64,000 nucleotides of DNA from Hydractinia symbiolongicarpus (taxonomy: Eukaryota > Cnidaria > Hydrozoa > Anthoathecata > Hydractiniidae): assembly GCF_029227915.1 (NCBI RefSeq), contig NC_079880.1:18000001-18064000 (forward strand). Direction: 5' to 3'. Under the pieces are notes generated by a model, which worked only from the letters and a program-made list of their open reading frames with translations, was not told the DNA's origin and searched no databases. The position numbers and the translations under genes are program-made. This document shows positions 2,918 to 63,114 of the stretch, one piece after another (within the stretch, counting starts at the first letter, position 1; the number at the start of each line of letters is the position of its first letter).

Positions 2918-2928
2918 AGCTGTCCCTT

Positions 2929-22899: not shown

Positions 22900-25800
22900 T
22901 TAATAACCGAACATGTCGTGTTCGTAAGGCTTTCCAATCCATTTACCACACGTGGTATCATTCAACGCCTTGAAAAAATTCTCTTTAGCCTTTTGGTGAT
23001 CGCACGCCAGAACTTTCGCAGCATGGTATGTTTTTGGATTCAATTTTAGCCTGAATGCTTTTATAAGCTGCATAAATTGGTCGTAAAAATTCAATTTACA
23101 AAGTCTCGAAGGCGATTGGACGACAGTTTTTCCTGTCGTTGCATTCACTGCCTCCACGTTTTTTTGCTCGCTGTACCAGTTAAAACTGTTGCTGTTCGCT
23201 TTTGAAGTGTCGCGATTTATATCTGCATTTGTCGGCGTCCCTAAACATGGTTTGTTCAGTGCGTAGGCTTCGGGACAATCCTTCATCCTCCCAGCTCTTT
23301 TATACAACGCTCTATACAACGCCTCGTAATGGTAGTGCAATCCTACCACAATACCTTGCAAGTAAATAGGTTCGGTGAAATAGCTAAGTAAAGCACCTTG
23401 AACACCCAGGGCATTCCACTTAAGAATCTTATCGCTGCAAGACATTGTGCGCAACCGCTCTCCCTCCAAGATGCCATCCGATGTTTGTATATTGTTCTCT
23501 GGCACAGGTATTGTCCCTAAAAATAGCCAATTATAGCTACACACAAAATCGTACAAGTTATTTATTCGGGTGAAGGGAGATTAGCAAACAAAAGTAAACC
23601 TGCAGCGCAAACCTTTTGAAAACACAAAACAAGGTGATCGTTATCGGTTAACACAACAAGAGTAAAACAAGAATAGACTTACCTTGTCCGTTCTCAATCT
23701 TCGTTCTTAACAAGCCAGCAGTTTTGTTTTTCGCTCCTTGCTGATGAGTTTGTAATGTAAACACCCTTCCATCTCCACAAGGAGCCGTGTTCACAAATAA
23801 ATAGACATGTACAGACGGTTTCAACGCAAATTTACCGTTAGGTTGTCGTGCAAATATCGTACTCGATTTGTTTCCAGCAGCTAAAAAAAGTTCATTGTAT
23901 AAATACCGTCGAAATCCCCGACAAGCGATGATCTCCCCGTGACAATCGTTTAACGTCTGTCCTTTATGATCCATCTGGTCACCAGTTACGCACTTTGTAC
24001 CGGTACCGATACTTACTACCTGCAAATCAGGAGTAGAATTTGTATCCTCGCATTTTGCCAACACAAAGGCGGCAATCACTTTGCACTGGGTTTCTCCCTG
24101 AAAAACATTTAAAAATTTTTCCTGTACAGCTTTCGTGATCATGTTACACAGCCCAGGTGCAAGCTCGTATTTAGGCTCGTCGTTTTTAGGACATTCTACC
24201 TTTACTCCCTCAGTGTAAATGTCTGGATTGATACCATACAGGGTATTTAGTGCCTCCCGCGCAGCTACTGTTTTGGCTGTTTTCTTGTTAGGACCTTCCC
24301 CGATAAAGTCTCTTTCTCCCACGTAGGCGGTCGCTTTAAATTTAACGGATGCATTACATTCGCAATCTTCCCATACTTCGAAGCGGGTTTGTGGATTTAA
24401 CTTCAGCAAAAGAACAATAGGATGATTGGTCGCAGGATTGCTGGTCGATTTGTTTTCGAAAATATCTTTTAAGTCGATTGCCGTCCACTCGTTGACGTCG
24501 ATGTTTTTCAACTCCTCCAACACCGACAACGCTAGTCTGAGTTTCGCTCTCTTTTTTGAAGAGCCTTTCGCTTTAAACACCTTTCCTTCGATTTGTGTCT
24601 TGATATGGTACTCTGTGATCCCAAGTGCAGTCTTTTCCTCACTTTCATCTAATTTAATGTCGCGAAAAAGTTCGTAAAACACCATTGTCGGATGTCGAGA
24701 CGTGTCGATAGTTTTAACTTTAGTGCTGCTCTCTGCATCTTCATATGCGGCCATGCCATCCTTCTTAGGACGTATCACATCAAGAGCCTTCTTAGCAGCT
24801 CGCAGTTTGGCTAAGTTCCGGTTTTTACCGACACCTTCGTACGCCACGCCCTTTATCACAATAGTAGCATGGTATGATTTTTCTTCGCTGTCTGGCTCTG
24901 CTTCTTCCTGGATAACCTCGATGTTAAGATCTTCACCTGTAATTTAACCAATATCAACAAATAAATTTCAGTGTAAAAAAGGGGGAACTGAGCCGTGGCC
25001 AACGCAAAATTTACAAGTGGAAAATAAAAATTATATACTCGTCACAAAGATATTTAAATTTTACTGGATTGGTTAAAATGATTGAATTTAAAACGTAATC
25101 AAACCCTTGTGAAAAAAAAGTCATATACACACTAGCGCGTTCAGAAATTCTATTAATATTAGTACATACGGAGGAGTTCTTTGAGCTGCGTAAGAGGAAA
25201 CTTTTTTTCTAGTTGAATCTCTTCCGGTTTTACTTTGGGGGATTTTTTTGTGATTTCCGCGTCTTTAAAGTCGTGAATATCATATATGCACAAAAGGATA
25301 GTCTTTGCAAGATTAAGTTTGGCTGTTTTCTTGCTTCGTCCCTAAACAGAAGAAACAAAGAGAAGTGAATAAACGTAACAACTGCTTTAAACAAGCACTT
25401 TATTTTACAATATTCCCTAACGCGAATGGTGAACTACCAGTTTCCCTGCAAAAAGGGTTATTAACAGATATTTGCTATACAAAATGCAGACGATATAAAC
25501 AATTTATATTACAACTATTGTCAGTTAATGTCAATAATACCTTATTCACCCCTTTGTCATTTTTTTTAATAAATCTTTTTTTGCTATGTTGAATGGTTAA
25601 TACTTACTAAGTTTCTATGTTTAAATTGTTACATTTATCTATTGCACCGCAAATTTTTATATCCTATACCTCTCAGAACCTTAGATGTTGGCCATTACCC
25701 GAAACAACGAAATCCTTAAAATCAGGAAAATAAAAAAACTTTCGTTAAGATTACTCTTAAAACTTGAAACTCACAACACAACTTTATTTCATCAAGAGGA

Positions 25801-39239: not shown

Positions 39240-40318
39240 TCAAAAACCCACACAACTCCATATCACGACTACTAAATCCGAACCTTCCAACCATTTCGTG
39301 CAACCTATGTTTTAAAACCTTTAAACCTACCTAATGAAATTGCTTCCAAAATTAATCAACACAATCCTTTTACAACGTTTGCTACATCCACATCATTTCC
39401 AAATCACCACTCTCCAAACTTTAATCTTACAAAAAAAGAACGTTTAACTTTTGAAGATGATATCCCCAAACCTGTTCTTAAAATAAGAGAGTTCAAAATC
39501 AGTGGATCGATAGGAACACCAGGACAAAAGGACCGTTTGACATATCAAATTAATAGTGCAGATAAACAAGGATTTTCAGAAACTTAAATTGTCAGTGGCT
39601 TTATTAAAGCTATAAACACTGGAAACCCACTTAGAACCTATCTAGAGGGTGGAACCTTTTTATCAGTAAAACAGTTGTTAAAAATTTTGTACTTGAAGGA
39701 AAAAAATGCAGCAACCCTATTTTCTAAATTTACCAATGCATCACAAAACCTTAACGAAAGTGCACCTGAATTTGTTGTGCTTTTAATGAGCTTAAGATAA
39801 AAAGTCATTTTAATTTCGCAAGAGGAAGATTGTCCGTTTGAAGAGTCAATGGTTATGAACCGATTTTTGCATACCATATTGACAGGTCTTAGAAATGATT
39901 ATGAAGACTCGAACTGAAACCGCTCTTCAGACAGTATCCACTACTAACAGATGAGGATATTTTACAAAAATTAAACTAAATCGCTTCTGAGGAAACTGAG
40001 CATCTAGAAAAAACATCTACTAAATGAAAAATTGAAATTGCTGAAATATCCAATGATCCATCCAAAACAAAACTTTTGTCTGAGATACAAGAAGTCAAGG
40101 CACAACTGGGAAAACTCTTACTTGTAAACAATGAAGTCGAAAAACTAAGAGCTACTGTTTCAAATTTCCAAAATCAACAATTTCGTCCAAGGTACCAGTG
40201 TAAAACTTGTCGTAAAAAGAATTTATCTGTACGTTGTAGTCATTGTTTCCTGTGTGGTTCAACTGAACACCGTAAATCCTTTCGCCCACAAAACAAATGG
40301 GAAGAAAAAACTAGATAA
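39240..40318 (+). pseudogene. gypsy 2 Gag, broken
   Basis: A frame with stop codons encodes VLKIREFKISGSIGTPGQKD, then LRTYLEGGTFLSVKQLLKIL and KEKNAATLFSKFTNASQNL, a capsid-like helical pattern. The last part (40076-40318) has a coiled-coil-like stretch and a C-x2-C knuckle, CFLCGSTEHRKSFR, in which the final cysteine is replaced by arginine. Confidence 0.75.
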
Positions 40319-41074
40319 GGCTCCAGTCGGGAGGTCAGGAGCTGAATTTGTAAAGACCTCCAAAAATTGTTGTGTTTGTAAAAAGAATGTAAAATATAGA
40401 TGTTCAAATTGTCGTTGCAGGTTGCATTGTTCCAAAGAGTGTCAATTGCAAGACAGAAATAACCACAAAGCTATATGTCGTGCCATTAAGGAATTAGAAT
40501 TAATGGAAAGAGAGAAACATTTTAAAAACTTTTATGTGTCTCAAAATTCCCCCATTTCCCCAAAAATGGCCAACAAACTTGTAACGTTGATTGGAACACA
40601 ACCCATAGTGAATTGTGAAATAAACGATGTTTCTTGTCAGGTTTTATGGGATACCGGTTCCATGATAAGCCTAATTAGTCAACGCTGGGTAGACAACCAC
40701 GCGCCAAACGTAAATTTTGTACCTATCGAGAAATTCACAGAGCATGCAAACGGCATATCGTTAAAAGCGGCAAATAATACGGAAGTATGTGTAGCCGGTG
40801 TTTTACCATTAACATGACAATCGCAGGAGCCAAGACAATTTCCGTACCATTTTTAGTTACACCAACCAATATCGCGTTACCCCTTATCGGATATAACGTT
40901 ATGGAGCACGTTGTTTTAAACTGGGAGTTACCGTTGCCACTCTTATTAAATGCTGCATTGCCGTGTCTCAATCATAAAAAAGCGGAAGCCGTCATTGACC
41001 TGATTCATGAACTCGGAGATGTCCTAGGAGATGTTAAAGTTAGAACCAAAACAATCCTACCGCCCAACCACTGA
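40254..41074 (+). pseudogene. gypsy 2 MYND zinc finger and aspartic protease
   Basis: The frame contains CCVCKKNVKYRCSNCRCRLH then CSKECQLQDRNNHKAIC, which fits the MYND spacing C-x2-C-x7-C-x2-C-x5-C-x3-C-x7-H-x3-C. About 70 residues later comes the retropepsin active site VLWDTGSMISLIS. A frame change near 40800 leads to the protease flap and C-terminal part (PFLVTPTNIALPLIGYNVME). MYND fingers normally bind proline-rich peptides in chromatin factors; in a Gag-Pol protein the role is unknown. Confidence 0.85.
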
Positions 41075-41124
41075 GTTTCAGTAAAATGTAAAACCAAAAT
41101 TGTAATGGATGGAAATGAACTAGC

Positions 41125-41913
41125 ATGTTGTTCGAGCCAAATGTCACTGGTGATTTTGATGAGGAGTTATCATTCAAGGATTTATTAGTGAGAGTTAAAA
41201 GAGGAAAAACCCAAATCGACACGGTGTTTGTTGAAAATCCTACGAACCATGAAATAATTTTAAAAAAAGAAGTTTTGATTGGTATCGTTAATCAGCCATC
41301 TGCCATACCCAGGGTACAGGACATTATTTATGGATTAGGAGGTCAGTCCTGGTTTACAACCCTTGACATGACTAAAGCCTATCATCAGGGTTTTATGGAC
41401 GAGAATTCGCACCATTTTACTGCATCTGCAACAACTTGGGCCCTTTATGAATGGCTAAGGATCCCATTTGGTTTAACCAATGCTCCACCTGTGTTTCAAC
41501 GTTACATTAATGAATGTCTAGAAGAGTTATTGTTTGTTCTGCATATCTAGATTATGTTATAGTAGAACATTTTAGGACCATCTTCAAAATGTCAGATCTG
41601 TTCTTCAAAGAATGAAGGAAAAGGGAATCAAGCTGAAAGCAAACAAGTGTAATTTCTTTAAACGAAAAGTTATATATCTAGGACGTGTCATCAGTTCAGA
41701 TGGGTATCAAGCAGATCCAGCATCTAAGAAAGATATTCATAAATTTCGAAATCCACCATCTACGGTTGGAGATCTAAGGAGTTTACTGGGCTTCTTAGGT
41801 TATTACCGTGGTTTTATCAAAGACTATACGAGAAAAGTTAAACCGTTATATGATCTACTAAGAAGTGTAAATAAACAAGACAAAGGTGGAAAGAAATCAA
41901 AATGTAAAATAAT
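41125..41913 (+). pseudogene. gypsy 2 reverse transcriptase, broken
   Basis: Visible motifs are WFTTLDMTKAYHQGF (catalytic Asp kept), LRIPFGLTNAPPVFQRYINE, then after a frameshift AYLDYVIV, where the second catalytic aspartate is tyrosine. IKLKANKCNFFKRKVIYLGR and LRSLLGFLGYYRGFIKDY follow. The start of the domain is missing: a leader (LIGIVNQPSA) is joined directly to PRVQDII. The frame is then cut by a LINE fragment at 41914. Confidence 0.88.
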
Positions 41914-42112
41914 ATAGTTCCTGGGGCAAAGCCCAGAGGCAGACCGAGAAAGACTTGGCAGGAGGTTATAAGGACAGACTTGATAGAGAGGAAGTTGAGT
42001 TTAGATCTAACACAGTCTAGATCAGATTGGAAGAGGGTCATTAATATACCCCGTCCAACCCATGCTAGCATGGAAAACGGACGTTAAGCCGAGAATGATG
42101 ATGATGATGATG
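41914..42112 (+). mobile_element. 5'-truncated LINE copy (3' end only) inside gypsy 2
   Basis: This 199-base segment is the reverse complement of about 1224-1410, with a single base difference that I can find, and ends in the same GAT repeat tail. It separates reverse transcriptase from RNase H of the gypsy element. 5' truncation is typical of target-primed reverse transcription. No clear target duplication is visible. Confidence 0.93.
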
Positions 42113-42611
42113 GTGAACACCACGTTGTTTTAGACATGATGGTAACAATTTTACCATCACCTGCAGTCATGACATTTCCTGATTTCAATTTCCTTTTATT
42201 GTCCACTGTGATGCTTCTCAGAAAGGTTTGGGTGCTGTACTATATCAAAAGCAGGAGGGTGAGATGAAAGTTATTTGTTATGCTTCCCGTCCTCTAACCT
42301 CAAGTGAAAAGAATTACCATTTGTACAATGTAAAACTGGGGTTTCTAGCTTTAAAATTGGCAATCACCCAACGTTTTAAGGATTATCTTGGTTGTGAACC
42401 TCCGTTTGAAGTATATACGGATAATAATCCTTTAACTTATGTCATGACAACAGCTAAGGTCCATGCCACAGGTTTAAGATGGATATCAGATTTGGCAAAT
42501 TACCAGTTTACTATAAAATATCGTAAAGACAAATCAAGTACAGACTGTGATTACTTATCCAGGAATCCCGTTAATTTTGAGGATATTGTAAATACCTGCA
42601 CAAGCTGTTAA
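42113..42611 (+). pseudogene. gypsy 2 RNase H
   Basis: The motifs IVHCDASQKGLGAVLYQKQ, ICYASRPLTSSEKNYHLYN, VYTDNNPLTYVM and KSSTDCDYLSR are the standard gypsy RNase H series with the catalytic acids present. Its 5' part is cut by the LINE fragment. Confidence 0.88.
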
Positions 42612-42659
42612 AGCTGATACGAAACCCATAAGACCAAATAAATTCCACTGAAGAACAAG

Positions 42660-43480
42660 AATAATCATCAAAGACTTCAAGAAATTCCAAATTAAAGATG
42701 GTGTATTAGTTCGAAATACAAGCAATTACGGGCACCAAACCGTGTTACCAAAAGAATATCACAAAACAGTGTATAACGAGTTACACAGTAAAATGTCTCA
42801 TCTTGGTTCAGAAAGAGTCCTAGAATTGGCTAGACAAAGATTTTATTGGCCCTGTATGGCAAAGGATATTACCTTTTTATACAGAAGCAATGTCGCTGCA
42901 TAAAAGACAAGAAACCAAACATTGCTGATAGAGCTCCACTAGTTCCAATCATTTCTACTCGACCCTTCGAAATGATCTCAATCGATTACCTCAAACTTGA
43001 CAAGTGTAAAGGAGGCTATGAATATGTATTAATGATTTGCGACCATTTTACCAGATTTACCCAAGCATTTGGAACCAAAAACAAATCAGGCAGAAACGCT
43101 GCTGATAAAGTCTTAACAAATTTGTTTCAAAATTTGGTTTTCCAGAACGTCTTTATCACGATCAAGGTAAAGAATTCAACAATGCTCTTTTTAAACGATT
43201 ACATGAATTTTCAGGGGTGAAAGCTTCACGAACCACACCATACCATGGACAAGTCGAGAGGATGAATCGTACTTTTATTAACATGCTGAAAACTCTACCA
43301 TCAGAGAGCAAACAGAATTGGAAGCAAGAATTGCCAAAATTAGCATTCGCTTACAATAGTACCATTTGCAAATCTACTGGCTTTACACCATTTTTTTTTT
43401 AATGTTTGGCCGACATTCACGTTTTCTCATCGACCTAATATTTGGTCTAGATGATATTGAGAATGAGGAAACTTTCAGAG
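42660..43480 (+). pseudogene. gypsy 2 integrase, frameshifted
   Basis: The HHCC region (ELHSKMSHLGSERVLELARQ ... QKQCRCIKDKKPN) precedes the core. MISIDYLKLDK gives the first Asp, YHDQGKEFNN the second in another frame, and TTPYHGQVERMNRTF the Glu. At least two frame changes separate them. It ends near PFFFMFGRHSRF. Confidence 0.88.
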
Positions 43481-44172
43481 TTTGTTAAGAAATGGAAAGA
43501 ATCCATACAATCTGCCATTCAAATTGCATCAAAATCTTCAAGATCTGGAAAAAATAGCTACAATAATAAAAACACATGGTAAAGAGATAAATGAAGGAGA
43601 TAGAGTTTTAATAAGAAATTTGAGCCAACAAGGTGGCACAGGTAAACTTAGATCACACTGGGAAGAGCATGTCCATGTAGTAAAATCAAAATCCATGGAA
43701 ACTCCTGTGTTTGAAATTGTTCTGAAAATGAAGAAGGAAAACCAAGAAAAGTTTTCACCGGAATCTATTGTTAAAGTGTGACTTCTTACCACTAGAAATT
43801 CCAAAGAAGAAAAATCACGGAGCTTTGACAAGTTCGGAGGGAGGAGAGGAAGGTACTGAGCAATTACATGAAGGTGTTGAAGATCTACAATTAAATGAAA
43901 GGAACGGAGATCTCGCTGAAAGACCATCTAAAGAAACAGAAGTATTTGAAGAAGACGATGTTGAAATACAAGGCGAAAGACAACCGGAAGAATAAGAAGT
44001 ATTTAAAGATGATGTCCAAGTACAAACAGACGATCAAATAGCAAAAGTTGATGACGAAAAACATAATTCAACGAGTGATGTTCAACAACACATACGAAAT
44101 ACAAGATCCCAACGTCAACGACGAGCACCTAGAAGAATGACGTTTGACAATCTTGGTGGCAAAATCACATAA
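43481..44172 (+). pseudogene. gypsy 2 integrase C-terminal region and acidic tail
   Basis: EGDRVLIRNLSQQGGTGKLR is the usual integrase C-terminal SH3-like fold. An acidic stretch (EVFEEDDVEIQGER) follows, broken by a stop near 43993. The frame finishes with TRSQRQRRAPRRMTFDNLGG at 44172. Confidence 0.8.
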
Positions 44173-47429: not shown

Positions 47430-47434
47430 GATAA

Positions 47435-47500
<66 letters not shown>
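47430..47500. repeat. TAA microsatellite
   Basis: About 23 TAA units with one interruption, directly before the GGATAGATTTGCATC repeat. Confidence 0.95.
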
Positions 47501-47518
47501 GAATATGCTTTTTCATTT

Positions 47519-47642
47519 TCGGATAGATTTGCATCACTTTTCGGATAGATTTGCATCGTTCGGATAGACTTGCATCGGTACCGGATAGATTTGCATCGCT
47601 ATCGGATAGATTTGCATCGCTATCGGATAGATTTGCATCATT
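47519..47642. repeat. six copies of GGATAGATTTGCATC, spaced 19-22 bp
   Basis: Copies start at 47521, 47543, 47562, 47583, 47604 and 47625. Five contain ATTTGCAT, the octamer bound by POU-family factors, and one has ACTTGCAT. The same 15-mer appears reversed at 62803-62817, and a variant with one change is in every unit of the array at 49.9-51.0 kb. Confidence 0.85.
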
Positions 47643-49859
47643 TCCGGCTGCCGTGTAATTTTTTACATTTCTAAAATGGCACCTTGAGGCGGACGACGAG
47701 CAAGAGCAGATATATAAACTGCTACTGCTTATTTATTTTGGTAAGTAGTACACGAAGGTCATTAGTTGATGTGGACTTTTATATTATTTAGCTAAGCCAT
47801 ACATATATTTGTTTCTGTTCACTGTCAAGTCTTTTAACCTAGCTAGCTAGAGCTAGCTCATATATATATTTCTTTAATCTCGTGGCTACCCACAAGTTTC
47901 TTTATCTCGTTGGTAAATGGAAGCAATTTATATTTATGTTATGTTATCCAGCTAGCTGAGCTGTGCCTCTGGCTTTCAGCTCTAGCTGCTGGATGAGTTT
48001 TGCTAGGAATTGGAAGTGGGTAGGCTGAATGCTTTGAGAAATATATAGCTAGCTAGCTAGCTAGCAATATGGCTAGTAAATGATACTTCAATACTAACTA
48101 GAGCTAGCTATAGAGTTATTCTGTGGCAATATAATGATGACTGAAACATTGTTATCTGTGTATAGATTACTTTAAGCCTGCATACATTTTGTTGAGCATA
48201 CAATTTTTCATAAAATGTGCTTAATCAGTGTAACTATAGACTTATTCTTTCATGTTACCAGTAGAAACCATCATAAGTGGGTCATGTGTACACAAGTTAC
48301 AGTACCGCTTAAATTTATTCTTACGTGTACGCAAAGTTTTCAACCTTGCATAACAAACTCAAATCTACATAATAGAACTTCACATAGAACCTTCACATAT
48401 CTTTTGTTTACATATCAACTTAAGGATACTTTGAGGGTATAAATATATTTTTTTACAAAAAATTTTATGTGTGAGTCTCACTTTGAACATTCTACAAGTT
48501 CTAACGATCACGGTGTGGATATTATCTAAACAAGCTATATTATTCAGCATACTTTTTAAACTTTTTTCGTAGATTTAATGTCGCAAGAAAACCTTTTCCT
48601 TGATCAGTTTTCTTCTAGCGTGTTCTAGAGTCATTTTTTTATTCTGTTTAATTTTACTTTGTTTTGAAAGTTTGTTTGTTTTTTTATACCAACTGACATT
48701 CAGCACAACAGATTTTTTTTTTAACAGGTTATATATATATATATATATCTATTGTAGCAAAGGTCATGTTGCAAAAAACTCTTTTACGAGGAATTTTAGA
48801 TGTTTGTTTTTCACGATGTATACATGACGTAAAATGTCAAAAACTCCCCTCCACTTTGCACACGAGCTCATCGATTCCTGCTGCAAATGACTTTGTCACA
48901 TTTTATGTATATTTTGATTATTTAAAGAAAAAGTGAGGTTAAAACACAAAAGATTCATTTTTTCACATTTTTAAAATGGAAAAAACAAACGACACGCTTT
49001 TTTAAAAAAATGTGACAAAGTATTGTTGCTATGGTAATGCTATAATGATTGATTAATATGACGCAGAAAAAAAATAAAACGGACGGGGAAAAAATTCAAA
49101 TTTTATATTTATATATCCTATAGACAATTTAATTTGCTTTTATATTCAATAAATAATTTTGAAGAAAAAGATAATTTTTGAGAAATAATGAATATACTGA
49201 ATATGTGTCTATACCCTTATAGTATCCTTAATTGTTTTCTATTGTTATCATCATGCGTGAACCATAACAATAAGACATGATGAAGCCTTTTGTTCTTGTA
49301 ACATTCAAGCTAAAAAGCGCTAACGATCACGAAAGCTATTGAAAATTTATGTTTTTTATAATAAACGGACAATAATTTTTTACCACGATTTAGTTTCAAT
49401 TGCTATATTTTATATATAACACAATACAGCGATCTTAAGCTATACTTTCTTTGTGTACCGAAAGATTATGGCACATCTCTATTTTTCTATTTCTTGGTTG
49501 TAAAAGCCAATAAAGTCTAAAAAGGTATGGTTTTTTTGTATATAATTATCTGGAGTAATATTAATCCACTGTTAATTTTTGTTTTTGGCGGGTAACTATT
49601 ATTTCACAGAGCAGAGACTGCTTTGGTAATCTAGGCTTCTACAGGAAAGCTGATCAAATTGAAAGAAAAAAAGCAGTAGCTATATATTTCCTTTCTCAAT
49701 CAGTTAAATTTGTTTTTCAACCTTCAGAAGACACAAGATAGATGGTATTACGATTCATAATTAAAGCATTTACTTTTGTAAATGGAAGACTTCTCCGAAA
49801 TATTGTGACGTTTATATATTTACCATGAAACACTTTATAGTGACCTCAGCCTGTTATAA
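47643..49859. other. non-coding DNA
   Basis: AT-rich with AGCT repeats (about 47845-47875 and 48046-48064) and a TA microsatellite (about 48730-48748). No coding frame has support. Confidence 0.55.
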
Positions 49860-51038
49860 TCTTATTATTATTTTGGATTAATCCAATTAATTATACAATA
49901 TACTGAGTCAATTGTGATATTATTATTCTTTTAGATTTATAGGATAGAATTGCATCACTCAGTATTTGTTCTTCTAGATGTGTGATACGATATACTGAGC
50001 GAGTTTTGATCTTGTTAATATTTTGGATTGATAGGATAGAATTGCATCACTCAGTATTTGTTCAGATAGATATGTGACACCAAATACTGAGTGAGTTGTG
50101 ATCTTATTATTATTATGGATTGAAAGGATAGAATTGCATCACTCAGTATTTGTTCTTATAGATATGTGACACCAAATACTGAGTGAGTTGTGATCTTATT
50201 ATTATTTTGGATTGATAGGATAGAATTGCATCACTCAGTATTTGTTCATATAGATATGTGACACCAAATATTGAGTGAGTTGTGATCTTATTAATATTTT
50301 GGATTGATAGGATAGAATTACATCACTCAGTATTTGTTCTTTTAGATATGTAACAACAAATACTGAGTGAGTTGTGATCTTATTATTATTTTCGATTGAT
50401 AGGATAGAATTGCATCACTCAGTATTTGTTCATTTAGATATGTGACACCAAATACTGAGTGAGTTGTGATCTTATTATTATTTTGGATTGATAGGATAGA
50501 ATTGCATCACTCAGTGTTTGTTCTTAAAGATATGTGACACCAAATACTGAGTGAGTTGTGATCTTATTAATATTTTGGATTGATAGGATAGAATTGCATC
50601 ACTCAGTATTTGTTCAGATAGATATGTGACACCAAATACTGAGTGAGTTGTGATCTTATTATTATTTTGGATTGATAGGATAGAATTGCATCACTTAGTA
50701 TTTGTTCATATAGATATGTGACACCAAATACTGAGTGAGTTGTGATCTTATTATTATTATGGATTGAAAGGATAGAATTGCATCACTCAGTATCTGTTCA
50801 TTTAGATATGTGACACCAAATACTGAGTGAGTTGTAATCTTATTATTATTTTGGATTGATAGGATAGAATTGCATCACTCAGTATTTGTTCATTTAGATA
50901 TGTGACACCAAATACTGAGTGAGTTGTGATCTTATTATTATTATGGATTGAAAGGATAGAATTGCATCACTCAGTATTTGTTCATTTAGATGTGTGACAA
51001 CAAACACTGAGTGAGTTGTGATCTTATTATTATTTTGC
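49860..51038. repeat. 92-bp tandem array, 12 units, each an inverted repeat
   Basis: CACTCAGTATTTG recurs at about 49956, 50048, 50140, 50232, 50324 and so on to about 50968. Each copy is followed about 20 bases later by its exact reverse complement CAAATACTGAGTG. Each unit also contains GGATAGAATTGCATC and GTTGTGATCTTATTATTATT. So every unit can fold as a hairpin with a 13-bp stem. A decayed unit lies at the left edge. Confidence 0.95.
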
Positions 51039-54000
51039 TTGAAATTTCTGTTTTTGTCAAACGAATTTTTTCTGGAGAAAGGACAGAGAACTTCTGGAAG
51101 CTCCTTTATTTTTTTGGAAATAAGTGGCCACTCTGGAGTAACTTAAATACGAGAAGATCAAATAGAATGTAAATTATTAAATGTAGGTTTAGAACTTTTA
51201 CGTTTTATTATCCATATTTTGCAGGTCTGCTTATGCATTTTTTTTCTTCATTTTTTAGTGTACCCTCCAAATGTTTTAACCGTTCATATGGAAATTGGTA
51301 GAACCGTTGGAAATTGTTAAAAATATGTCGCCATTGTTACGTCAGCGTGCAGCAAGATTAATTATACTTGAAAAAAATGGCGTCAAATACTATGACATAT
51401 TGAAAACTGTTTTCAATAAACGAAGAAAGTTTCCAAATTGTTGCATATTTTTTCCATAAAAGCCTTCTTGCTTGTCAACTACAGTGTCCGACCAACAATA
51501 CGTACGAAAACTCATTTGCAATCCTGTTTTTATGCAGCTACTTGTATTATAGGACGACAGATTTATGTAAATTGACAGGTAGACCTAATTGCAACGCACG
51601 ACATGGTCTACAGACGGTATCCTACATTGGAGCAAATTTGTGGGATGTGCTTCCGGTATAAAGGAAGCTGAAAGTATGAACTCATTTTCTTCACAGTCTT
51701 ATTATTTTTATTAGATCTATTTATTTTTATATCGTCAATTTAGCCAAGTGTAGTCGTACTCTTCTATCAAATCCTATACATGACTTCATACAAGAGGTGA
51801 CATTTCCATTTGTATCCTTTTAATTGACGTTAAATAAATTTATGTCTGTTTACTCTGTTATACCTGGGATTCTGTGACACAACTCGGTTGGCACAATTTG
51901 CACGCGTAAATCCAGATGCGACAACGTCAAATGTGTTGAGTCCTCAATGTATTCGTTTAGGAAGTTATAGAGAAAAAAATTGACGAGGATATTAATAGTT
52001 ATTCCTTTCTAGGCAAAATATGAGGCTCAACGCCAAACCAAATAGCTGAATAACACGGCGCGTTTTCGACTTTTAATGTTTCTCAAGCGTCGCGTGTGTG
52101 GATTAAGCAAAACGAATTTTTTAAGGCTGAATCATCTTCCAGGGAACTGATGCGAAATTTCTAGGACGAGTATAAGGGCGAAATTCAAGGGAAACCATCG
52201 ATTTGAAAATCGGTTCTGCTTAAAAACTAGGTGGTACACTCACCTGCAATTGTAAAGTATAAGTGTTTTGATCTTAAGATTTCCTGTTTTACGGGATTTC
52301 CGAACTTAAATGGCAAAAATTTTTGACTTGTGGTGCGACAAGGTGTGTACGTCAGCAATATTTGAAGATGTCATCGTATAATTAGCGTAATATATTAAGA
52401 GCCTCGATTCCATGCTATTAGCCTTTTCGGAATTAGCGCAGCTATACTTAATCTTTTTCGTAAGTGGTGCAAGTTTGACTTTGCCTAACTTACTGTTCTT
52501 GGTAGTGAAGCATAAAAGAAGATCTAAAAAGGAGTTTTGAGAGATTTATTGCTTATCTCGACAGGTTTTCGTCTACATTTGGGCACCAGTATTAAATTCT
52601 AGACCTAGTATCCTGTTATAATTCGCGAATTTCCGAAATACCTTGGATTTGGCATGTTTGGAACTTATATAATTTTGCTATAAAACAAGACTTGAGAGGC
52701 TTAAATGAGATGCTGATATATAAGAAAAAAACATCCCAAGGTAAACTGTAATTCTCTAAAAAGAGTCTCTACATTTTAGCCTTTACATTTTAGCACTTTT
52801 TGTAGGCTTTGCTACCGAGAACGGTGGGTCATTGTCCTGCCTTGCTCCACTTGCGGGAAAATTAAATAAGGCCGTGCTATTCTTAAAACGCGTATTTCAG
52901 TTGAATGGAACCCGTATTTCAGTAGATGTTATACAATAATTTCTATTTAATGGTAGCATAATATCGTAATTAGCTCAATTCCAGGCTATTTCGGTGAGAC
53001 ATTTTAGAATCTATTAAATGCTAAAGTAACGTATTATCGCGACGATATCGATTAAGGACTATTCCAGTAGACGCAAAGTATTTAATTCTTTCAGTAAAGT
53101 CTTAATAATTGAATTCTATCCTCGCAGTAATACTTATAGGACGCAACTACTTTCAGAAGACATCGACCGATAATTCAAATATTTTTTTGCCGCGGTCAAA
53201 AAAAGACGTTTACGTTCACTCAGACTTAAATGAACGGCTTGTTTTGGTTATCGTTACATATTATGTCATCCTATGTTAGATTTTCTACGGGCTAAAGATT
53301 AGTCTCCTTACTAAAACCCGTACTTTGTCTGTCTGAACGTGAGTCGAAAGTCATGTCTGAGGCGATATATTTTTTCACTTTAAGAGAGCGAATTTCGCTC
53401 CCGTGTGTACTAATCGAAGTTTCCACAACGTGTGCTTTCTCTTGAAGAAGATATTCCCTTCTTTTCCAATAAAGTAGTCAGTTTATATTTATTACTTTCT
53501 TCCACGTCCTTGTTTTTTAATCTCTAGCTTGTTTAATCTCCATTTTGCAGGCGCCATCTTGCACATCATTAAACACAAGAGTTGGTTGTTTTGTTTTAGT
53601 TTTGGTTGCTTTGACAATGTTTTCAAAATCGAACGATTTGGAAACATTTGAATGTTCGAATTCTAGTTAAAAAGACTTATAGAGAGAAATTCCTCCGATA
53701 GACGGACAAATTTGTTCTACCAACCGAGATGTTCGAGTTTTCGAGTACTCGAGTTATACTGATTATATTATTGCCCTGTTAAATCTATTCAGGCCAAGGG
53801 AACATTAAAACGGGTAACTCAATGCCGTGGAACCTCCGATAGCTATCTCTTTATCTCTTATACTAATACGGAGCTTTTGTCTGTCTGTCTGTGACTTTTT
53901 CAAAGGCGATATTTTTTAATTTTAAAAAAAGGACGAAATGATGTTTTTAGAAAAGCAGGAAGCAGGTGGTACGGCAAGCATACGGTATAACACGCCCGTT

Positions 54001-54590
54001 ATTAATAGCACTATCTCAAAATGTTTCTAATTTTTTGATATATCAGTGCTTTCATTCATGGTACTGTGCAAATACTTCAGAACCATTACACATTTTGCTA
54101 ATAACACCCATTTACCCCACAGTGCCCTAATATTACCCCTAGTTACGCTCCACATTTTTTTTCGAATTTTCCCCCGTTATCGCTGTTTTTCAAGTATTTA
54201 ATATTTTCCATTTTGTGCGTTCTTGTCAAAATTCATTTAGAATGAGAAAATTAGTGCTATGGGAGATTTTGCGTTTATAACACAAAATAAGCAATAAGAT
54301 AAAAACTATATCATGAATTTTTCCGTCCAAAATTGAGTGTACGTTTTTGAAGGACTGGTAGGTAGACTTTTGTTACTGAATTCAGTCTAGATTTTCTTAC
54401 AATTTTTTCTTGACTAAAGAATTTACTCACGTGCTAATGGTGTGATATGTTTTTGCGTGATAGATATACTGATACATTAGTATTAAAAACTTAATAAAAT
54501 GTTTACGCCAACTTTGAAAAACCTCGCTTGTTTGTCGATTTTTTTCCAGAAGACTTCTTCCAGAACGAGGGCACGTGTCTTTTTGTTACT
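51039..54590. other. non-coding DNA
   Basis: No gene is supported. Two related sequences with ACTAAWACnnGnnCTTTGTCTGTCTG and a following GGCGATAT (about 53307-53370 and 53860-53915) belong to one dispersed repeat. Confidence 0.55.
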
Positions 54591-54597
54591 TACCGTC

Positions 54598-55112
54598 GAT
54601 GTTCGAATAAGCGACCCCTCCCTAAAAACGCCCCTACTCGAATAAGCGCCCCCAGGCGGTTATTTCAGTATGAAATTAGGAACAAAAGAGGGCGCTTATT
54701 TTAAATTTTTATTAATTTATAAAATAGAAAATAGCATTTATAAGTACACAGCTCTCTTTTTTATCTCTATTTGATAGTCAAAATTCATCTCAAAATGGTT
54801 ACGTTTTTCCTTTTTTTTGAGTTTATTGTTTTGAATGATTTCTTTGTTTTCTGTCATAACACTGTACATGGCTGGCACAACAAGTCCAACCTCCCTATTT
54901 CTCTTTCTTTGGCCACACCAAGAAATTGGACATTCTAAAGTGATAATTGGAATGTGTCCGAAAAGTCCCCCTTCGGTGTTACAAATTCTGATATAGAAGA
55001 GGCTGGAAAAGAGATATTTGTTTTAGCAAAAACATTTAAACAATAAAATTTCAATTTTTTAAATAAGCGCTCCCTTATTCGAATAACCGCTACTTTCGAA
55101 TAAGCGCCCTTA
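54598..55112. repeat. inverted-repeat element with TTCGAATAAGCGCCC motifs
   Basis: The left end carries TTCGAATAAGCGACCCCTCC and CTCGAATAAGCGCCCCCAGG, then GGGCGCTTATTTTAAA. The right end carries AAATAAGCGCTCCCTTATTC and TTTCGAATAAGCGCCC. Similar GGCGTTTATAAGAA sequences occur at about 61655-61950. It looks like a MITE family; exact ends were not fixed. Confidence 0.6.
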
Positions 55113-55292
55113 AAATCTTAAAAAATTATTTACGCTATTTTAATCTTGTGTTTTTTAAGGCAAACATTTTAATTGTTGTATATTTTTTTTGTTCTTGGGT
55201 GAGAAATTATGCAATTAGGCCATGGAGGGATACACTGTTGTCAGACGGAAGTGGATTTGTCCATTATCAAATCGATTCTCTCATAGGTATGA

Positions 55293-55500
55293 TTGAATAA
55301 TGAAATACTTCTTATTAAATTAAAGTCAGGCGTCATTTACAAATATAAGTGCATTGTCTGCACCGCCACTTATATAGGTGAGACGTCGCGTCATCGTAAC
55401 AACTGGTATTTGCTAGAGATTAAAGAGAGTTTGTTCATGATAGTCCCCAGTTTAATAACAACATTAGATCTACTCCATTGTATTTATACAATTAGTATTT
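55293..55500 (+). pseudogene. Penelope-like element fragment (GIY-YIG endonuclease and C-terminus)
   Basis: The frame encodes SGVIYKYKC-IVC then TATYIGETSRH, the GIY-YIG core of Penelope-like elements with its preceding zinc cysteines. It then jumps to LLEIKESLF and, after a frame change, SPQFNNNIRSTPLYLYN and a stop, which resembles the usual Penelope C-terminus. About 60 residues between are missing. No reverse transcriptase is present. Confidence 0.75.
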
Positions 55501-57075
55501 AATCTGTAACTATGGTTACTGTTAAACTTGTATATACTTAGGAGAACTTTGTACTTCGTCGCAAATAATGTAGTTTTTTTGTTGTCAAATACTTCTTAGT
55601 TCAGCCAACTGCAAATTCCCTCCACTGCGATGCGATTCATATAAAGAATATTTTTTATATCATATGAAGTATTTATGTATTATACTGAACAGTTCTTTTT
55701 TCTCAATCGTTAGTGTACGTTAGCCCTAATTCATTTGGATTTTTTTATCAAACTATCTCCAGAGAAAACTAATGATAGGGTAATAATGTGATGAAATTTA
55801 GTGAAATGATTAAAATTTATAGGAGCAACAAAATTGCGGCAAACGCTTATGTTACTTTATCTATGACGTCATCAAGATTCCGAAAAATAACGAGAATATA
55901 TGTGTTCACTTAAGTCCTCGAGTTCTGAATCGAAATTTCTAGTTCTAGTTAAACACTCAACTGAGACGAACAAAAGTTATACGATTTTTTATTTTACAAG
56001 GATTCCCAAAGAAGTATATCAATAGTTCTAAATAATGGCTAATAAATCAAGGGCAGGAAGGCCTGGGAACTAATCAATTCACAGCATCTTGTTTAATTAG
56101 ATTTTAGTAAAACTCAGGTAGCTTACTTTATCAATCCATGGTAGCAAGAAAGGTAACATAAGACGGGGAATGTGCCACCCCCTTCGTTGATAAAGGATTA
56201 AGTGAGTTACATAAATTATTTGCGTGATCTATTAAGTTAAATCCACGTAAAAAAAATGAAAAAACTAGAGCCTAAAATGAAAATGAACGAAATCAAAAAA
56301 AAGAAATAAAAAAATAGAGATCCTGTTAGTAATATTTAGTAAGGTAAGGGAGCGAAAAATACTTTTTTTATTAAACTAACCTACAGAAAAATAATATTTC
56401 GCATATATGATCCATGAAACACGCAAATGTTTCAAAAATCCGCAGTTTTTTCATCTCCGAGGGCACGACGGATTCCGCCTCTCCTGCTGGTTTATTCTTA
56501 ATCACTTCTTTTTGCTAGGCTACAAGGTTATGATACCTCTGAGTTGTTATATTTATCTATTTACCACCTGCATACCAAAATTTTAGGTGCCATACCTTTT
56601 AGAGCTTTGGATATTAGTTATTACTTGAACCCACCCCTTAAATTTCTATTAAATACTTATAAACTGGAACTGACAAGTCGCAACACAATTGTATTCCAAT
56701 AAGGGGAATTATTCTTTGAAGTTTGGACACGTGATTAATCCGATTTTCCGATTACTTCAGATTTCACCTGAAATTTTAAACAGAGTATTATAATTTGTTC
56801 TAAAAGTAAAGTAATTGCATTTAAGCAGATAGTGGTATTTTGGACAAATTTCAAGCTTCTGGTGATGTCACAGAAAAAGTGCTGACATAAGCAAGAAGTT
56901 ATTGCTGCCATTTTGATTCTTTTATGACGTGCTATGTTTCAGTGTGCCAAGTTGATCTAATTTGGAAAAGCCTATAAAAAGTTTTGGAGGGGGTGGAATC
57001 CACCCCGCCCCTCCCCTTTCATATGTACAAAAAAACCTGGAGCGAATAGGGTTAAGTAATTATAAGTTGTAGTCA
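55501..57075. other. non-coding DNA upstream of the SET/recombinase locus
   Basis: No coding frame is supported. A pyrimidine-rich stretch ending TCATCACTTATAG at about 57140 could be a splice acceptor for the SET exon. Confidence 0.5.
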
Positions 57076-57605
57076 TTGCTTATTGTAAGAAGTAATGCCT
57101 GTACAATAGGAGCAACAATATCATTATCATCACTTATAGGACATGGTGTATTTTCATGTCAAACGTACAGAAAAGGAGATGCCCTCCTAACATACCGCAG
57201 TGCTTTATTAAGTGCAACTGAGGCAAATGAAAGGGCAATGGCATACGCAGACGACGTTGGCAGTTATTTGTTTTACTTCAAGAACGGTAATAAAGAAAAA
57301 CGCATAGACGGTCCTGGATCGGACTGTGTTGCCAGATTTGTGAATGACTCGCCATCGCAATACGCAAATTGTAAAATGATGTTGAAATTGAGCGACAACA
57401 GACCACATCTTTGCCTGATTGCCGTTAAAGATATATCACCGAATACAGAACTGAGGTACGACTAAGGTGAACTGAAAAAGTTTCTGCCATGCAGAAATAA
57501 CAACAAATATAAAAAGCCATTTAAATTAGTCATGCTAAAAATGAAAACTTCTGAAGAACCGTTTAAAGCTAAAACAACAAAACTGTTACTGCTGGAGAAG
57601 TATTG
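57076..57605 (+). pseudogene. SET-domain methyltransferase module
   Basis: The frame shows GHGVFSCQTYRKGDALLTYR, then DCVARFVNDSPSQYANCKMM (the RFxNDS pseudoknot equivalent of RFINHS) and LIAVKDISPNTELRYD. These are the ordered SET motifs, similar to the KMT5A/SETD8 group. The next codon is TAA where the conserved tyrosine of ELRYDYG is expected, so the domain is cut by one nonsense change. The frame then continues with GELKKFLPCRNN. SET domains transfer methyl groups from S-adenosylmethionine to lysine. The first residues before GHGVF may be intron. Confidence 0.82.
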
Positions 57606-58800
57606 AAAGGTGTATTGAATTCAGAAGGTCCGTACAGACAAGAAGATACAATCCGATCCGGCCGGGAAAGAAATATTTAAAGTAAATCCCTCTGTTTCTC
57701 CTGTTGCCAAAAGAAAGCTCTTTAGGTCCATCGATAGTTCTGCTGAGATGCTTCAAGAACCGTACTTGAAAATAGAAGACAAGTCTAGAGCATATCGACC
57801 GCAGGTGTATCGTTACTTTGCCATTCCAGATTTTAACTTTGACGATGAGAGTAAAGAAGTTATTTTCCATGCAAAAGGAGAAGAAAGAGGAATTTCAAAT
57901 ATGCTGTGACCCTGTGCCTAAGAAGTATTGTGAGATTTGCGACCAATCTTCCTTAGATCATGAAAAACATCTACAAACTGAGATAAAGATAACAAAAGTA
58001 AAAATTTTCATGTAAAAAAAAATTGCCCGATTGATAATTGTCTGCAAGTAAGAACAAATATGTCTGAACATTTATCAACAAAACATAAAATCCCTAGAGG
58101 TCCGCTCTACTACGACTTGTTGAAGAGTGCTGTTAGATATAACATGGAAATAATGCCAGAAAACCTCTTGGAGTCTCCAAGAAAGTTAATAATGGCGCAC
58201 AAAGAACAGAGCTTTGCGGTATCACACACTGTTACAACGTTATTATATAGACCTGCAAACTTGACCAATCATACTGTCGCCAAGCAAGACAACCAAAAAC
58301 CAGAAATTTCGAAGAAAGATATAGAAAATCCTTCCTCACAAAACACAATGGTAGATAAGAATTTGGAAACAACTGGATTTTTACAGCTGTGCTTACGGAA
58401 CATCGTCTCATCACACACTGTTACAGCACCATTAAATAGATCTGCGAATTCAACAACTAATACTGGTAATACTGATGTAGAACAAGTCGTCAAACAGCAA
58501 ACCAGAAATCTCTAAAAAACATAAAGAATAATCATCTGCTCAAAACATAACGATAAGTTTGAACACAGAAACAACTGGACTTTTATATTTGCATTTACGA
58601 CGCATGAGGATCAACCCCGGTAAAAAGAAGGACTCCAGAAATGAAGAAGGTATATTTTCACAGAGTTCACCCGATAGTTATGAGAGTTCAGGTAAGGAAT
58701 GCACATCCAGCGAAAGTGAAGAAGAATACGATTGGTAGATTGACGAAAATACCGATTGGAGCCTTGCAATTAGTCTGGGACCACGTTTAAAAAGTATTAG
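57606..58800 (+). pseudogene. linker with zinc-finger-like motifs and acidic serine-rich region
   Basis: Frames encode KKYCEICDQSSLDHEKHLQT and, in another frame, CPIDNCLQVRTNMSEHLSTK followed by HK, which fit Cys2-His2-like fingers. A repeated low-complexity section (58220-58480; SHTVT with a nearby NRSANSTTN) and SSESEEEYDW follow. Several stops interrupt. No enzyme is recognised. Confidence 0.6.
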
Positions 58801-58809
58801 CCTTATTTT

Positions 58810-60300
58810 TCAACTACATGATTGGTCCTGACAGAAACCGAAAGGAGAGTTCAATATCCGTTATCTTTGGTGACATGCGGCAAATTTTTGTTGCCGTTGG
58901 AGTGAAAGATGACTTGGATATCGTTTTTAGAAACGGATTTCCATGATCTGTATATCGTCAAACATTGCGGTGCTAAAGGAACTAACCCCTCAAGTATCAA
59001 TTAATATCTGTACTCGCTGATAGACTTCTGCGAATTTTTACTTGCAGAAGACATAGTCATGGCGAATGTAAAGAGGAGAGACACGCACACATTAATTGAA
59101 AAAATTAAACAGTGGAGGAAACATTATAAAAGGCAGGAAAATATTTTAAAACATAAAAGTCTGTTGAAAATTTTAAGATGCTTGTTGATGAAGAACAGGT
59201 AAAACGCTATAATAATAGTGAAAATGCTGTTGCGGTCTTTGAAACATTATAAAACACCGGGAGTATTGCCTCATCAGGGATCACTTGTACACAAAGATCC
59301 ACTTTACAAGTGCACCACCCTCAGGCGTAACGTCAAACATAACAATCGCAGAATTCAAAAGTTCAGAGTTGCAAGAAGATGGGAAATGGCTCATAGAAGT
59401 GTGGGATCATAAGACAGTTGAGCACTACAGTCCGGCTAAGGTGATTTTAACAACAGAGAACTACGAACTGTTGAAGATCTACGTCATAAAAGCAAGACCT
59501 CAAACATCTCCAAAATTTGAGAATGTTTTTGTAACTTGGTCAGGACAGAAAATTAACTCTGGTGACGTAAGTAAAAGATTGCATTTAGCATGGAAGAAAG
59601 CAGGAAACTTTGAGAGCAAAGAGGCACCAAAAAATCTAACTGCGAACATCATAAGGAAATCCACAAGCACCGGATTAAGAGAAAATAAAAGCAAATTTAC
59701 CGCTGAAGTTGCCAACCTGATGGCGCATAGTAAGAGTACGGCGGAAGATCATTATTACATAAGAAATATGAGAAAGTCAGCCAGTATTGGGACGAATGTG
59801 GTTACAGATCTATTCTACGGGAGTGATTACCATGACAAAAACCGACCAATAACTACTACACCTGATAAAACAGCAACTTCGCAATCAGTATGCACCCCTA
59901 CTTCGCAAAACAAACGGAAGTTATGGTCTGAAAAAGAAGTGAGTGAAATAGAAACCGCTTTTAAAATTGAGGAAATTAGTTATGGTTTTGTTAAGTAGAA
60001 ATGTGAGACAATTAGTTCAATAGATGCTTCACCGAGACAAGTATATGTCAAACTCAGAGTGATGAACAAATGAAAAGGTCTCCGTCTCAGCGTCGTTGCT
60101 TGTTTTCAGAAAGTGACTTAGATGTGTCGGTATCTCGAGGAAAGAAATTAATCAAGGGCGGAAAGCTTACTGAAGATAGAGTGGACGAATGTTTTGACGG
60201 TACAGGACTTCTAGAAAAGTATTCTTTCAGCCAAATCCGAACTAGATTGTCCTACGAAAGAACAAGAAAGAATAAAAAATCTAAAAGAAAGGTAAGTTGA
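58810..60300 (+). pseudogene. tyrosine recombinase (phage-integrase fold) with Myb-like C-terminus
   Basis: The core-binding part includes DFCEFLLAEDIVMANVKRRD, IKQWRKHYKRQENI and VKRYNNSENAVAVFE. The catalytic part (59285-59998) has SNITIAEFKSSEL, a beta hairpin WLIEVWDHKT, FENVFVTWSGQKINSGDVSK, NIIRKSTSTGLRE (arginine of box II) and LMAHSKSTAEDHYY (histidine and tyrosine nucleophile). The first catalytic arginine, expected just before SNIT, is not seen, in a place where frames change. KLWSEKEVSEIETAFK then resembles a Myb/SANT helix. A basic tail ends with KNKKSKRK at a possible splice donor; a strong acceptor at 60482 would add only a few residues and a stop. Confidence 0.75.
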
Positions 60301-62800
60301 TCGACGATTGTCTTTTTTATTAGTCTATAGTGTGTTACAGTGGCGAATTTGATTGAATACTTCCATACCCATTGTCATGAAATTGGGATTTGTTTTGATC
60401 CTTACAACAGATGGCGGTTACTTTTTACCTGTCTAAGTTGTGCTCATATAAAATATACTGTTGGATCACAATTTTTTTTTTCAGCACCAAGAGATGTGAC
60501 AAGCCTACTACTTTGCGTTCAGCTTCATAATGGCCGACAGATGTTGTGAAAAAAGAACTGAGTTACGAATATCTTCTTGTAATTTATTAACCATGACTTT
60601 TAAGTTAACTTTTGTTTAGACAATACTAATGACAGTAAGTCAAATATCGGTTACATGTAGAAATTTTTTATTGATTTAAATTATCTTTTCATGTCATTGT
60701 ACTTTGAAAAACACTTTCGTGCAAAATTTTCTGCCAGAAATGTCCTTAAGGAACTTTCGACTATTATTATCCGTACGCTTAAAAATTTTTTAAATTATCG
60801 TCAAAATTTGATTGTGACTTCTTTAATGCTACGACACTAATTCCATTAAGGTATCATCGAAAAAAAGTTACCGGGCGTCTCTATTTTATCATATTATTAA
60901 CGAAAAGCTAAATTTTGCTGTTGTAACGGATCATATTTTAAAGAGGTCATACAATTCCCAGCAGTAAAAAGATGTCTTGTATTTCGGGAAAGAATACGCG
61001 TAGGCTGTATGGGAGTAAATGTCAATTGTGACGTCACTGTTTTCTAGCACTGGTTCACAGTTTGCATATTTAGGATGGCGTCATTAAATTTTGATCCATA
61101 AGTTTGTTCACATATCGGCATTTGTGTTATTTTATTTTGTTTTTTAATGTTTTTCTCATTTTTCTATTTTGAGATGAGACTGTATGAGATTTATTATTAG
61201 TCGTACCATATACACGAATACCTGTTCACTACACCTGTACTTTTGACAATTTTTTTATTTTCTATTCATTCTTACATTATGTTCTAGAAGATAAAGAAAT
61301 GCGAATTTTTTTGACTCTCTGCGACAAAAAAGTAGATTCTTGCGAATTTTTAACCATTACTCTAAACGTCGATAGGCTGCAGAATTAGATTTTTCTCACG
61401 AGCATAGGTCATGTTAAGAGCGCTGCATTCACCACTCGCGCTTTTTGCGATGCTTGCATTACCAAACAATCTTTAACATAACCCGCGAAGGTACAAAATT
61501 AGAAGAAAAATGGCTGTGCTAACTTTATCCGAATTTGTCAACCTTTTGAGTTTTTCTTGTAAAGATATAATCGCAGATCCTAATGCCCGTGTGGACCGTA
61601 ACTCTTCGAATCAACACCTGGGGTTTTTAATAAATTTTCGATTTATATAGGGGCCGTATTAGAAGGGGGCGTTTATAAGAAAAGGCGCTCAATAAATGTT
61701 TGTATTTTTTTCTTTTCTTTTCCCGATGGAATAAATATATTTTCACATAATATCTACATCATTATCAATATCGTCATCGCCAATTATATTAAGAGCGTTC
61801 AACGTCGGTGATATCTTCTTTCCATACTTCATATAGTATAGGTATTTATCTTATCGGTGAAACTTTCGTTTCGAAAAAAGGCCCTCTGAAGGGGCAAGTT
61901 TATAAGAAGATTATTGAAAGAGGGGGCGTTTAATCAAGTGTGGGGCGCCTAAAAGAAGAAAGCGATTAACCAAAGCATAACTAATTCTCTTTGAAAGTAA
62001 TACCCTGTCGCCGGCTGAGAAACCTTTCTCAGGAATAAAACGAATATCACCGGGTGTCTGCGAAAGCCGCCGGCATCTTCTTTTTTACTTAATGCTTTTC
62101 AAAATATACCGCCTGAACTCCGGAGTAAATCATGGTAAATAATTAAAAATCAGTTTTCATATGGTAAATCTGATTACACGGTAGTAACTTGTATATTTTC
62201 TGACATCGGGACGAACTTTTTCCATCCTGATATAAATAAAGAAAAAACAGGCGTTTGGAACGTGATTGGAAGGGGCTAATTTCGGTACCATCAACCTCGT
62301 CCCCAGGGCTCTTTTAATTATTAGTAATGGGATGGCCCTGGGGACATAGCTGTGGTGCCACTTTAGTATACCAATAACAAAGTGGCAATAATTTCACCTG
62401 CACGCCTGTAATTTTTAACCTTAACTACTCGCTATATTTGAATTGGTTGGCACCAATACCTTTTATTTGATATGGTATTAATGCAAATCCGTGGTCGAGT
62501 CAACAGTTATTACGAAATTGTCAATTATTATGAAGTTGTCAACCATTATGAGGCCGGTTGCCGTTAGGCGAGTCGCTCATATGTTGACAAATAATTGATA
62601 ACAATTTGGAAAATTATTATCAATTATTATCAATTATTATCAATTATTACCAAAAAGGAAAACACACCAATAACCAAATAACGCAGCTCCAAATAAATGA
62701 GATTTTTATTCGAATAATCGGTATTTATCCTAATCTTGTCCAAATAATGACAAAAAAGCATTTCTAATAAGGATATGAAATCCTACGGTAGCAAAGAAAA
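60301..62800. other. non-coding DNA
   Basis: No coding frame is supported. Sequences with GGCGTTTATAAGA (about 61658-61950) belong to the repeat family seen at 54.6 kb. A direct ATTATCAATT repeat lies at about 62610-62650. Confidence 0.55.
62313..62347. repeat. short inverted repeat GTCCCCAGGGC...GCCCTGGGGAC
   Basis: Eleven-base arms flank a short AT-rich spacer. Single arms with the same core (GTCCCCAGGGCTTCTT) occur at 17727 and 28961, so this is a dispersed short element. Confidence 0.75.
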
Positions 62801-62802
62801 AT

Positions 62803-62817
62803 GATGCAAATCTATCC
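62803..62817 (-). repeat. single reversed copy of GGATAGATTTGCATC
   Basis: It lies 14 bases from the long ATT microsatellite. At 47.5 kb the same 15-mer also adjoins a TAA microsatellite. Confidence 0.8.
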
Positions 62818-62829
62818 GAATATTCATAT

Positions 62830-63114
<285 letters not shown>

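Follow-up and report, generated by a model that had tools for sequence, protein, structure and literature searches.

Several described systems resemble, in one part or another, the locus that we analyze here. SETMAR is a single host gene in which a SET domain is joined to a mariner transposase of the DDE type. Iteron plasmids and the oriP/EBNA1 system of EBV each place a protein of their own on an array of repeated sites, where it recruits host replication factors. Ciliate Tec elements have inverted ends, and the methyltransferase (MT) domain of DIRS, Ngaro and PAT retrotransposons is DNA methylase-like and not a SET domain. In the parts of the literature used here, an MT domain is described for some of these tyrosine recombinase (YR) retrotransposons (PMC4157794), and Tec1 and Tec2 are described as encoding a DDE transposase besides their YR (PMC3212892). 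Cryptons are presented, in the parts of the 2011 Crypton paper drawn on here, as lacking terminal inverted repeats and having short direct repeats or none, and the terms "SET domain" and "methyltransferase" have 0 mentions in its main text (PMC3212892). An element joining SET or DBF4 to a recombinase was not described among the matches listed by our full-text literature search.

We analyzed a 64-kb window (C6:18000001-18064000) of the Hydractinia symbiolongicarpus genome, in which the first-pass annotation had marked 57076..60300 as a SET methyltransferase joined to a tyrosine recombinase. This + strand gene is real, and its parts (SET, C2H2 fingers, acidic stretch, core-binding domain, YR and SANT-like tail) stand in the order that had been read. 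Its extent had to be revised, as it is one part of a 15.3-kb mobile element, present here as a broken copy, and not a 3.2-kb gene alone. The KMT5A-like SET domain (57073..57465, +), assigned by its Pfam and KMT5A matches, has a stop within its YDYG motif. Between SET and the fingers lie two Cdc7-binding motifs of DBF4, M and C, that were absent from the annotation. Motif M (EPYLKIEDKSRAYRP..., 57757..57840, +) was placed by the reading frame, at a position where relatives match the DBF4 chain 4f99_B. The motif C zinc finger (57926..57979, +) is shortened by a deletion; it is matched by the relatives P0002 and P0004 and has a zf-DBF match under the cut-off (E 0.008). A C2H2 finger (57985..58092, +) is 84-89% identical to P0004 residues ~589-626, and the counterpart of P0004 residues 204-590 is absent at 57979-57985. 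Further along the same strand are an acidic serine-rich stretch (58640..58738) recognized in the sequence, a core-binding (SAM-like) domain in two frames (58794..59154; P0002 match, Phage_int_SAM_1 weak in 4/8 relatives), the YR catalytic part with a first SANT-like tail (59243..59995; Arg I is Pro, whereas Lys, Arg II, His and Tyr are kept), and a second SANT-like helical tail in another frame (60052..60258; P0002 match 49%). The low-complexity linker ahead of the acidic stretch holds an internal duplication of ~190-200 bp (58221-58599). Single-strand folding of 60300-60400 gave no notable hairpin. As judged from these letters, the window copy is dead, and the YRs of other copies look able to act.

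The whole element spans 47502..62830 (+, 15,329 bp) and is flanked by (ATA)n tracts, which Tandem Repeats Finder reports as microsatellites of 25 copies on the left (47431..47505) and 93 copies on the right (62831..63111). It is bounded by short imperfect inverted repeats, set in (TAA)n tracts, that have AATATG and one 17-nt block (CGGATAGATTTGCATCA) in common; the left end at 47502 is placed on the basis of the window itself and of an analogous element on C2. This C2 element (C2:13171310-13186730, 15,421 bp) starts with GGATGTTCCTA directly after (TAA)n and finishes with TAGGAACATCC directly before (TAA)n, and its inverted repeats are identical at 31/36 positions. The similarity of the C4 copy to the window extends through the right end and the adjoining (AAT)n and stops there.

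A 15-bp end motif, GGATAGANTTGCATC, occurs 19 times in the window with one mismatch allowed, all within the element and none outside (expectation 0.00 in 100 dinucleotide shuffles of the window). Six copies form a left-end array of 21-bp units (47519..47639, +), twelve lie in a 92-bp tandem array of 12.4 units (49900..51037, +), and one is inverted (62803-62817) in the right end (62803..62830, -). The C2 copy has a diverged form, GGATAGCCTGACATC, found 35 times with two mismatches allowed and 0 times in each of 10 base shuffles. Seven of these are at the left end, five at ~4.2-4.6 kb, one at 6782, twenty in an 89-bp array and two near the right end. Within each subfamily, one motif variant is common to ends and arrays, as expected if a single protein binds both, and we infer such binding here. 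Our preferred reading, to which we give a probability of about one half, is that the locus is a ~15 kb YR DNA transposon whose SET8 and DBF4/Cdc7 modules are brought to its own repeated motif, which would act as the element's own origin.

The other coding regions of the window include a host-like ADAR gene (22903-24943, -; A_deamin E 2.5e-53, dsRNA-binding motifs E 2.6e-20) and two retrotransposon copies, one at 9465-12986 (-) with reverse transcriptase (RT), RNase H and integrase domains, the other at 40028-43778 (+) with an RT match at 41119-41547 and other frames that are RNase H- and integrase-like. The frames at 1250-4448 (-) resemble a non-LTR retrotransposon by eye, and their sole Pfam match is a PHD-finger at 1250-2029.

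We found at least 75 matches to P0004 when the species' own genome (480.9 Mb, 76 contigs) was searched (70 of 174 candidates were scored), and the copies include subfamilies whose members lie on different chromosomes. The first-pass annotation had asked whether relatives are multi-locus and encode both domains in one frame; both are the case. On C4, a single open frame of 1272 aa (C4:6127807-6131622) contains a complete SET domain, DBF4 motifs M and C, fingers, acidic stretch, core-binding domain and the YR up to its second catalytic Arg; past one frame change, 205 aa carry the His, the Tyr and the tails. The part of this copy within locus L001 gives Pfam matches to SET (5.6e-14) and zf-DBF (9.3e-12) and no integrase match. 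In the C7 copy, of subfamily SF2, a gap of 547 bp, probably an intron, separates two stop-free frames. The first (517 aa) has SET and zf-DBF (E 5.3e-12); the second (826 aa) has fingers, acidic part, YR and tails, and its Pfam output is a weak SAM-like match only (E 0.0034).

Co-occurrence was sampled at 35 distinct places (45 loci), the window included. SET is present at 27/35, and SET and YR share one stretch at 23/35, or 24/35 counting the C7 extension. All three of SET, DBF4 part and YR are seen at 10/35 places, namely nine window-like copies (among them the window) and C7, and three further SF2 stretches have SET and DBF4 and end ahead of the expected YR position. The fusion is widespread, and its architecture and multi-copy nature are plain from these copies. 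One might suppose that a SET pseudogene came to lie next to a recombinase by chance, and the broken window copy, taken alone, does not decide the matter. This explanation is refuted by the C4 frame that is open through both, and the joint presence at 24/35 places and a fusion in Hydra also speak against it, so that we attach practically no weight to it.

The modules come and go among copies. Eight places are without SET (two partial window-like copies, five SF3 copies and L044); in the SF3 copies and in L044 the DBF4 part is present and no SET is seen within ~1.5 kb and 2.4 kb upstream, respectively. SF4, which has at least 11 copies, is without ~1.2 kb of SF2 that contains the DBF4 part, and at L043 SET and YR are present and the DBF4 part is not seen. 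This argues against each module being needed in every copy, unless there is help in trans. It also bears on another account of the same transposon, in which the SET and DBF4 parts form no origin but work on chromatin or timing, by tying recombination to S phase, directing where the element inserts, or shielding it from silencing. That subfamilies without DBF4, or showing no SET, still have several near-identical copies favors it, as does the fact that KMT5A marks occur beyond origins and are not confined to them. On its own, however, such a role in chromatin or timing leaves unexplained both the double capture of replication-initiation parts and the internal end-motif arrays, and we consider it somewhat unlikely, while keeping it as the closest competitor to the origin that we favor.

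The copies within subfamilies are very similar. In SF2, L009, L011 and L012 are 97-99% identical to L010 on different contigs; the SF3 copies (L025-L029) are ~98% identical, also on different contigs; and the SF4 copies (L031-L041) are 97.5-98.7% identical to L040 over their longest matches, on which measure L042 reaches 97.7% and L045 93.5%. The right end is present in 11/13 SF4-type loci (in the other 2/13 it is not reached or not shown) and is directly followed by (TAA)n in 11/11, in agreement with the defined ends that the first-pass annotation had asked for. The flanks beyond these right ends, compared among themselves by BLAST, gave no alike pair (the L045 flank was too short to enter). 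Near-identical copies on different chromosomes, with shared ends and unalike flanks, argue for mobility; fixed ends and many copies show it without telling which enzyme is responsible. The full left end is seen only in C2, in the C7 neighbor of an SF4 copy and in the window, and target duplications are indistinguishable within (TAA)n. The (TAA)n itself may be part of the element or may have expanded once the element was in place, which we count against the preferred reading. A provisional SF4 left end at C2-local 4788 was dropped, since C7 and L045 extend further left. In the C7 SF4 copy (L034, ~7966-8145), a right end is followed head to tail by (TAA)n and then by a second copy's left end, an arrangement to be expected if a copy inserts at an end already in place or if a joined circle is involved.

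A protein search returned nine relatives (P0001-P0009). The YR can be aligned in 8/9 of them, P0004 stopping ahead of it; zf-DBF is found in 3/9 (P0002, P0004, P0006) and SET in 2/9 (P0004, P0006). Several relatives start downstream of SET, so its absence there says little. SET and YR are together in 1/9, the Hydra protein P0006 (LOC124814412, 1036 aa), which has the C-terminal half of SET and zf-DBF, with fingers, YR and tail by homology. Searching proteins with P0006 returned itself and five chordate DBF4-type proteins, and no further fusion; searching with the SET region returned P0004 alone. No relatives were found in IMG/VR viral contigs, prokaryote genome contigs or phage records. The distant P0009 (932 aa, 25% identity) has fingers, acidic stretch, YR and tails and no SET or DBF4 match, and may represent the family's state before capture.

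The occurrence of the fusion in a predicted Hydra protein would also fit a domesticated host gene with pseudogene copies. The shared ends, the (TAA)n and the near-identical copies on several chromosomes stand against this, and so do the catalytic residues that the element's relatives retain, unlike domesticated Crypton YRs, which in the parts of the Crypton paper used here are described as losing most of the tetrad (PMC3212892). We find this explanation very improbable.

The window SET domain (PF00856, E 1.4e-10) has KMT5A as its nearest solved structures (E 1.4e-13), and in C7 the KMT5A match reaches E 4.8e-21; KMT5A chains are the top structure matches, with MLL and others far behind. The NHS motif reads N-D in 6/6 sequences (window, C4, C7, C2, L045 and Hydra), which leaves methylation by this domain putative and counts against the preferred reading. 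YDYG is kept in C4, C7 and P0004, is YNYG in Hydra and is broken in the window.

In the DBF4 part, the chain 4f99_B, solved with CDC7, matches both motifs in P0006 (E 1.1e-12), P0004 (3e-5) and P0002 (4.4e-4). Taken by itself, motif M is matched weakly (i-Evalue 0.62 in P0006), though in the right order, ahead of motif C. We take both motifs to bind Cdc7, as in DBF4, in part on the strength of the 4f99 match. For the N-terminal BRCT-like motif N there is no Pfam match in P0002, P0004, P0006 or the C4 and C7 frames, and SET occupies its place. Hydra P0006 lacks a conserved stretch after motif C that P0002, P0004 and C7 have in common (P0004 residues ~215-400; C4 and C7 copies). No family matches the region from motif C to the fingers, and the P0004 model has a mean pLDDT of 35.5, too poor for use. 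The first-pass annotation had suggested that the element may methylate chromatin at its target or donor; the DBF4 motifs point to replication control instead.

The window YR has a weak PF00589 match under the cut-off (E 1.4e-4), NCBIfam gives weak XerC/XerD matches in P0002 and P0009 only, and DUF3504 had no Pfam match among 8 relatives. Searching the PDB with a profile of the YR alignment gave nothing at E<=5, phmmer with the window YR nothing at E<=1, and PHROGs nothing useful. These weak profile matches count against the preferred reading. The predicted structure of P0001 (mean pLDDT 61) resembles XerH, Cre, XerA and XerD most closely; its tail is helical and is named by no profile. When the window and seven relatives are aligned, Arg I is Arg in 7/7 relatives, Lys, the second His and Tyr are kept in 8/8 rows, and Arg II is kept in 7/8, P0005 having Trp there. 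At the first His of HxxR, 8/8 rows have Asn or Thr.

The YR could also be a resolvase or a passenger, with another transposase acting in trans on the inverted ends, as in ciliate Tec elements. The inverted-repeat ends, which described Cryptons lack, would suit such a transposase (31/36 positions in the C2 copy). Against it, no RT or DDE enzyme, nor any Pfam family, was found in the 10 flank ORFs of the window gene, and the 10 other ORFs of the C2 element have no RT or DDE, their only matches being two sub-threshold RDM matches inside the tandem array. There are no stop-to-stop frames of >=90 aa between 47733 and 54740, no RT was found in P0001-P0009, and the YR catalytic residues are retained in relatives. 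We judge this explanation improbable, and from the sequence it is likely that the YR itself cuts the ends and joins them at TAA repeats, perhaps via a circle.

Under the preferred reading, the fingers, tails and YR would bind the repeated end motif. The SET module, brought to this motif, would place H4K20me1 on nucleosomes and so allow pre-replication complexes to assemble, which would then be fired by Cdc7, recruited and activated through the DBF4 motifs. The array would then serve as the element's own origin, from which an excise-and-reinsert element could gain copies. In a review, PR-Set7 (KMT5A) tethered to a locus is described as promoting pre-RC assembly, and the Dbf4-dependent kinase as phosphorylating MCM (PMC10968542). 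Where a protein with both modules binds a repeated site, replication would be expected to be licensed and fired, and on this ground SET and DBF4 may have a role in replication. More tentatively, and with clearly less than even confidence, we propose as a serious hypothesis a self-licensing transposon, in which the array-bound YR protein would supply the element with a SET8-type methyltransferase for licensing and with the Cdc7-activating DBF4 part for firing; the element, still resident or already excised, would then fire, maybe more than once per cycle, and outpace the once-per-cycle rule of the host. How excise-and-reinsert elements gain copies is a standing question. The capture of parts from two replication-initiation regulators, together with an internal array of the end motif, makes element-controlled origin firing testable. 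If true, it would be a case of the Cdc7-activating motifs of DBF4 working in a protein other than DBF4. The combination of lysine methyltransferase and recombinase is itself a new one.

Like SETMAR, the element couples a SET domain with an enzyme of transposition, but it is multi-copy, its enzyme is a YR, and its SET is KMT5A-like whereas that of SETMAR belongs to another subfamily. The SET structures closest to it in sequence are those of KMT5A (SET8, PR-Set7), with E values as low as 4.8e-21; the element's SET differs by having ND for NHS and by its fusion to a YR. With DBF4 it has motifs M and C in common, both Cdc7-binding, whereas no other DBF4 part is detected in it and SET lies ahead of the DBF4 part. 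The likeness to iteron plasmids and to EBV oriP/EBNA1 would be functional if the model is right, with putative binding and a putative origin; we claim no homology. DIRS, Ngaro and PAT likewise have a YR and differ by their RT, none being found in the element's ORFs scanned. Tec elements share inverted ends and a YR, but have a DDE transposase, for which the scanned ORFs of the element gave no match. As in Cryptons (animal CryptonA), the YR is the sole recombinase found and the scanned ORFs have no RT. Of the R-H-R-Y tetrad by which Cryptons are defined, most relatives keep Arg I, Arg II and Tyr; the first His of HxxR is replaced in 8/8 rows and the second His is present in 8/8. Unlike Cryptons, the element has inverted ends in (TAA)n, a length of 15 kb, end-motif arrays, and SET and DBF4 parts. 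Terminal inverted repeats set it apart under the Crypton description, and so we do not file it as a Crypton, though it is to Cryptons that it stands nearest.
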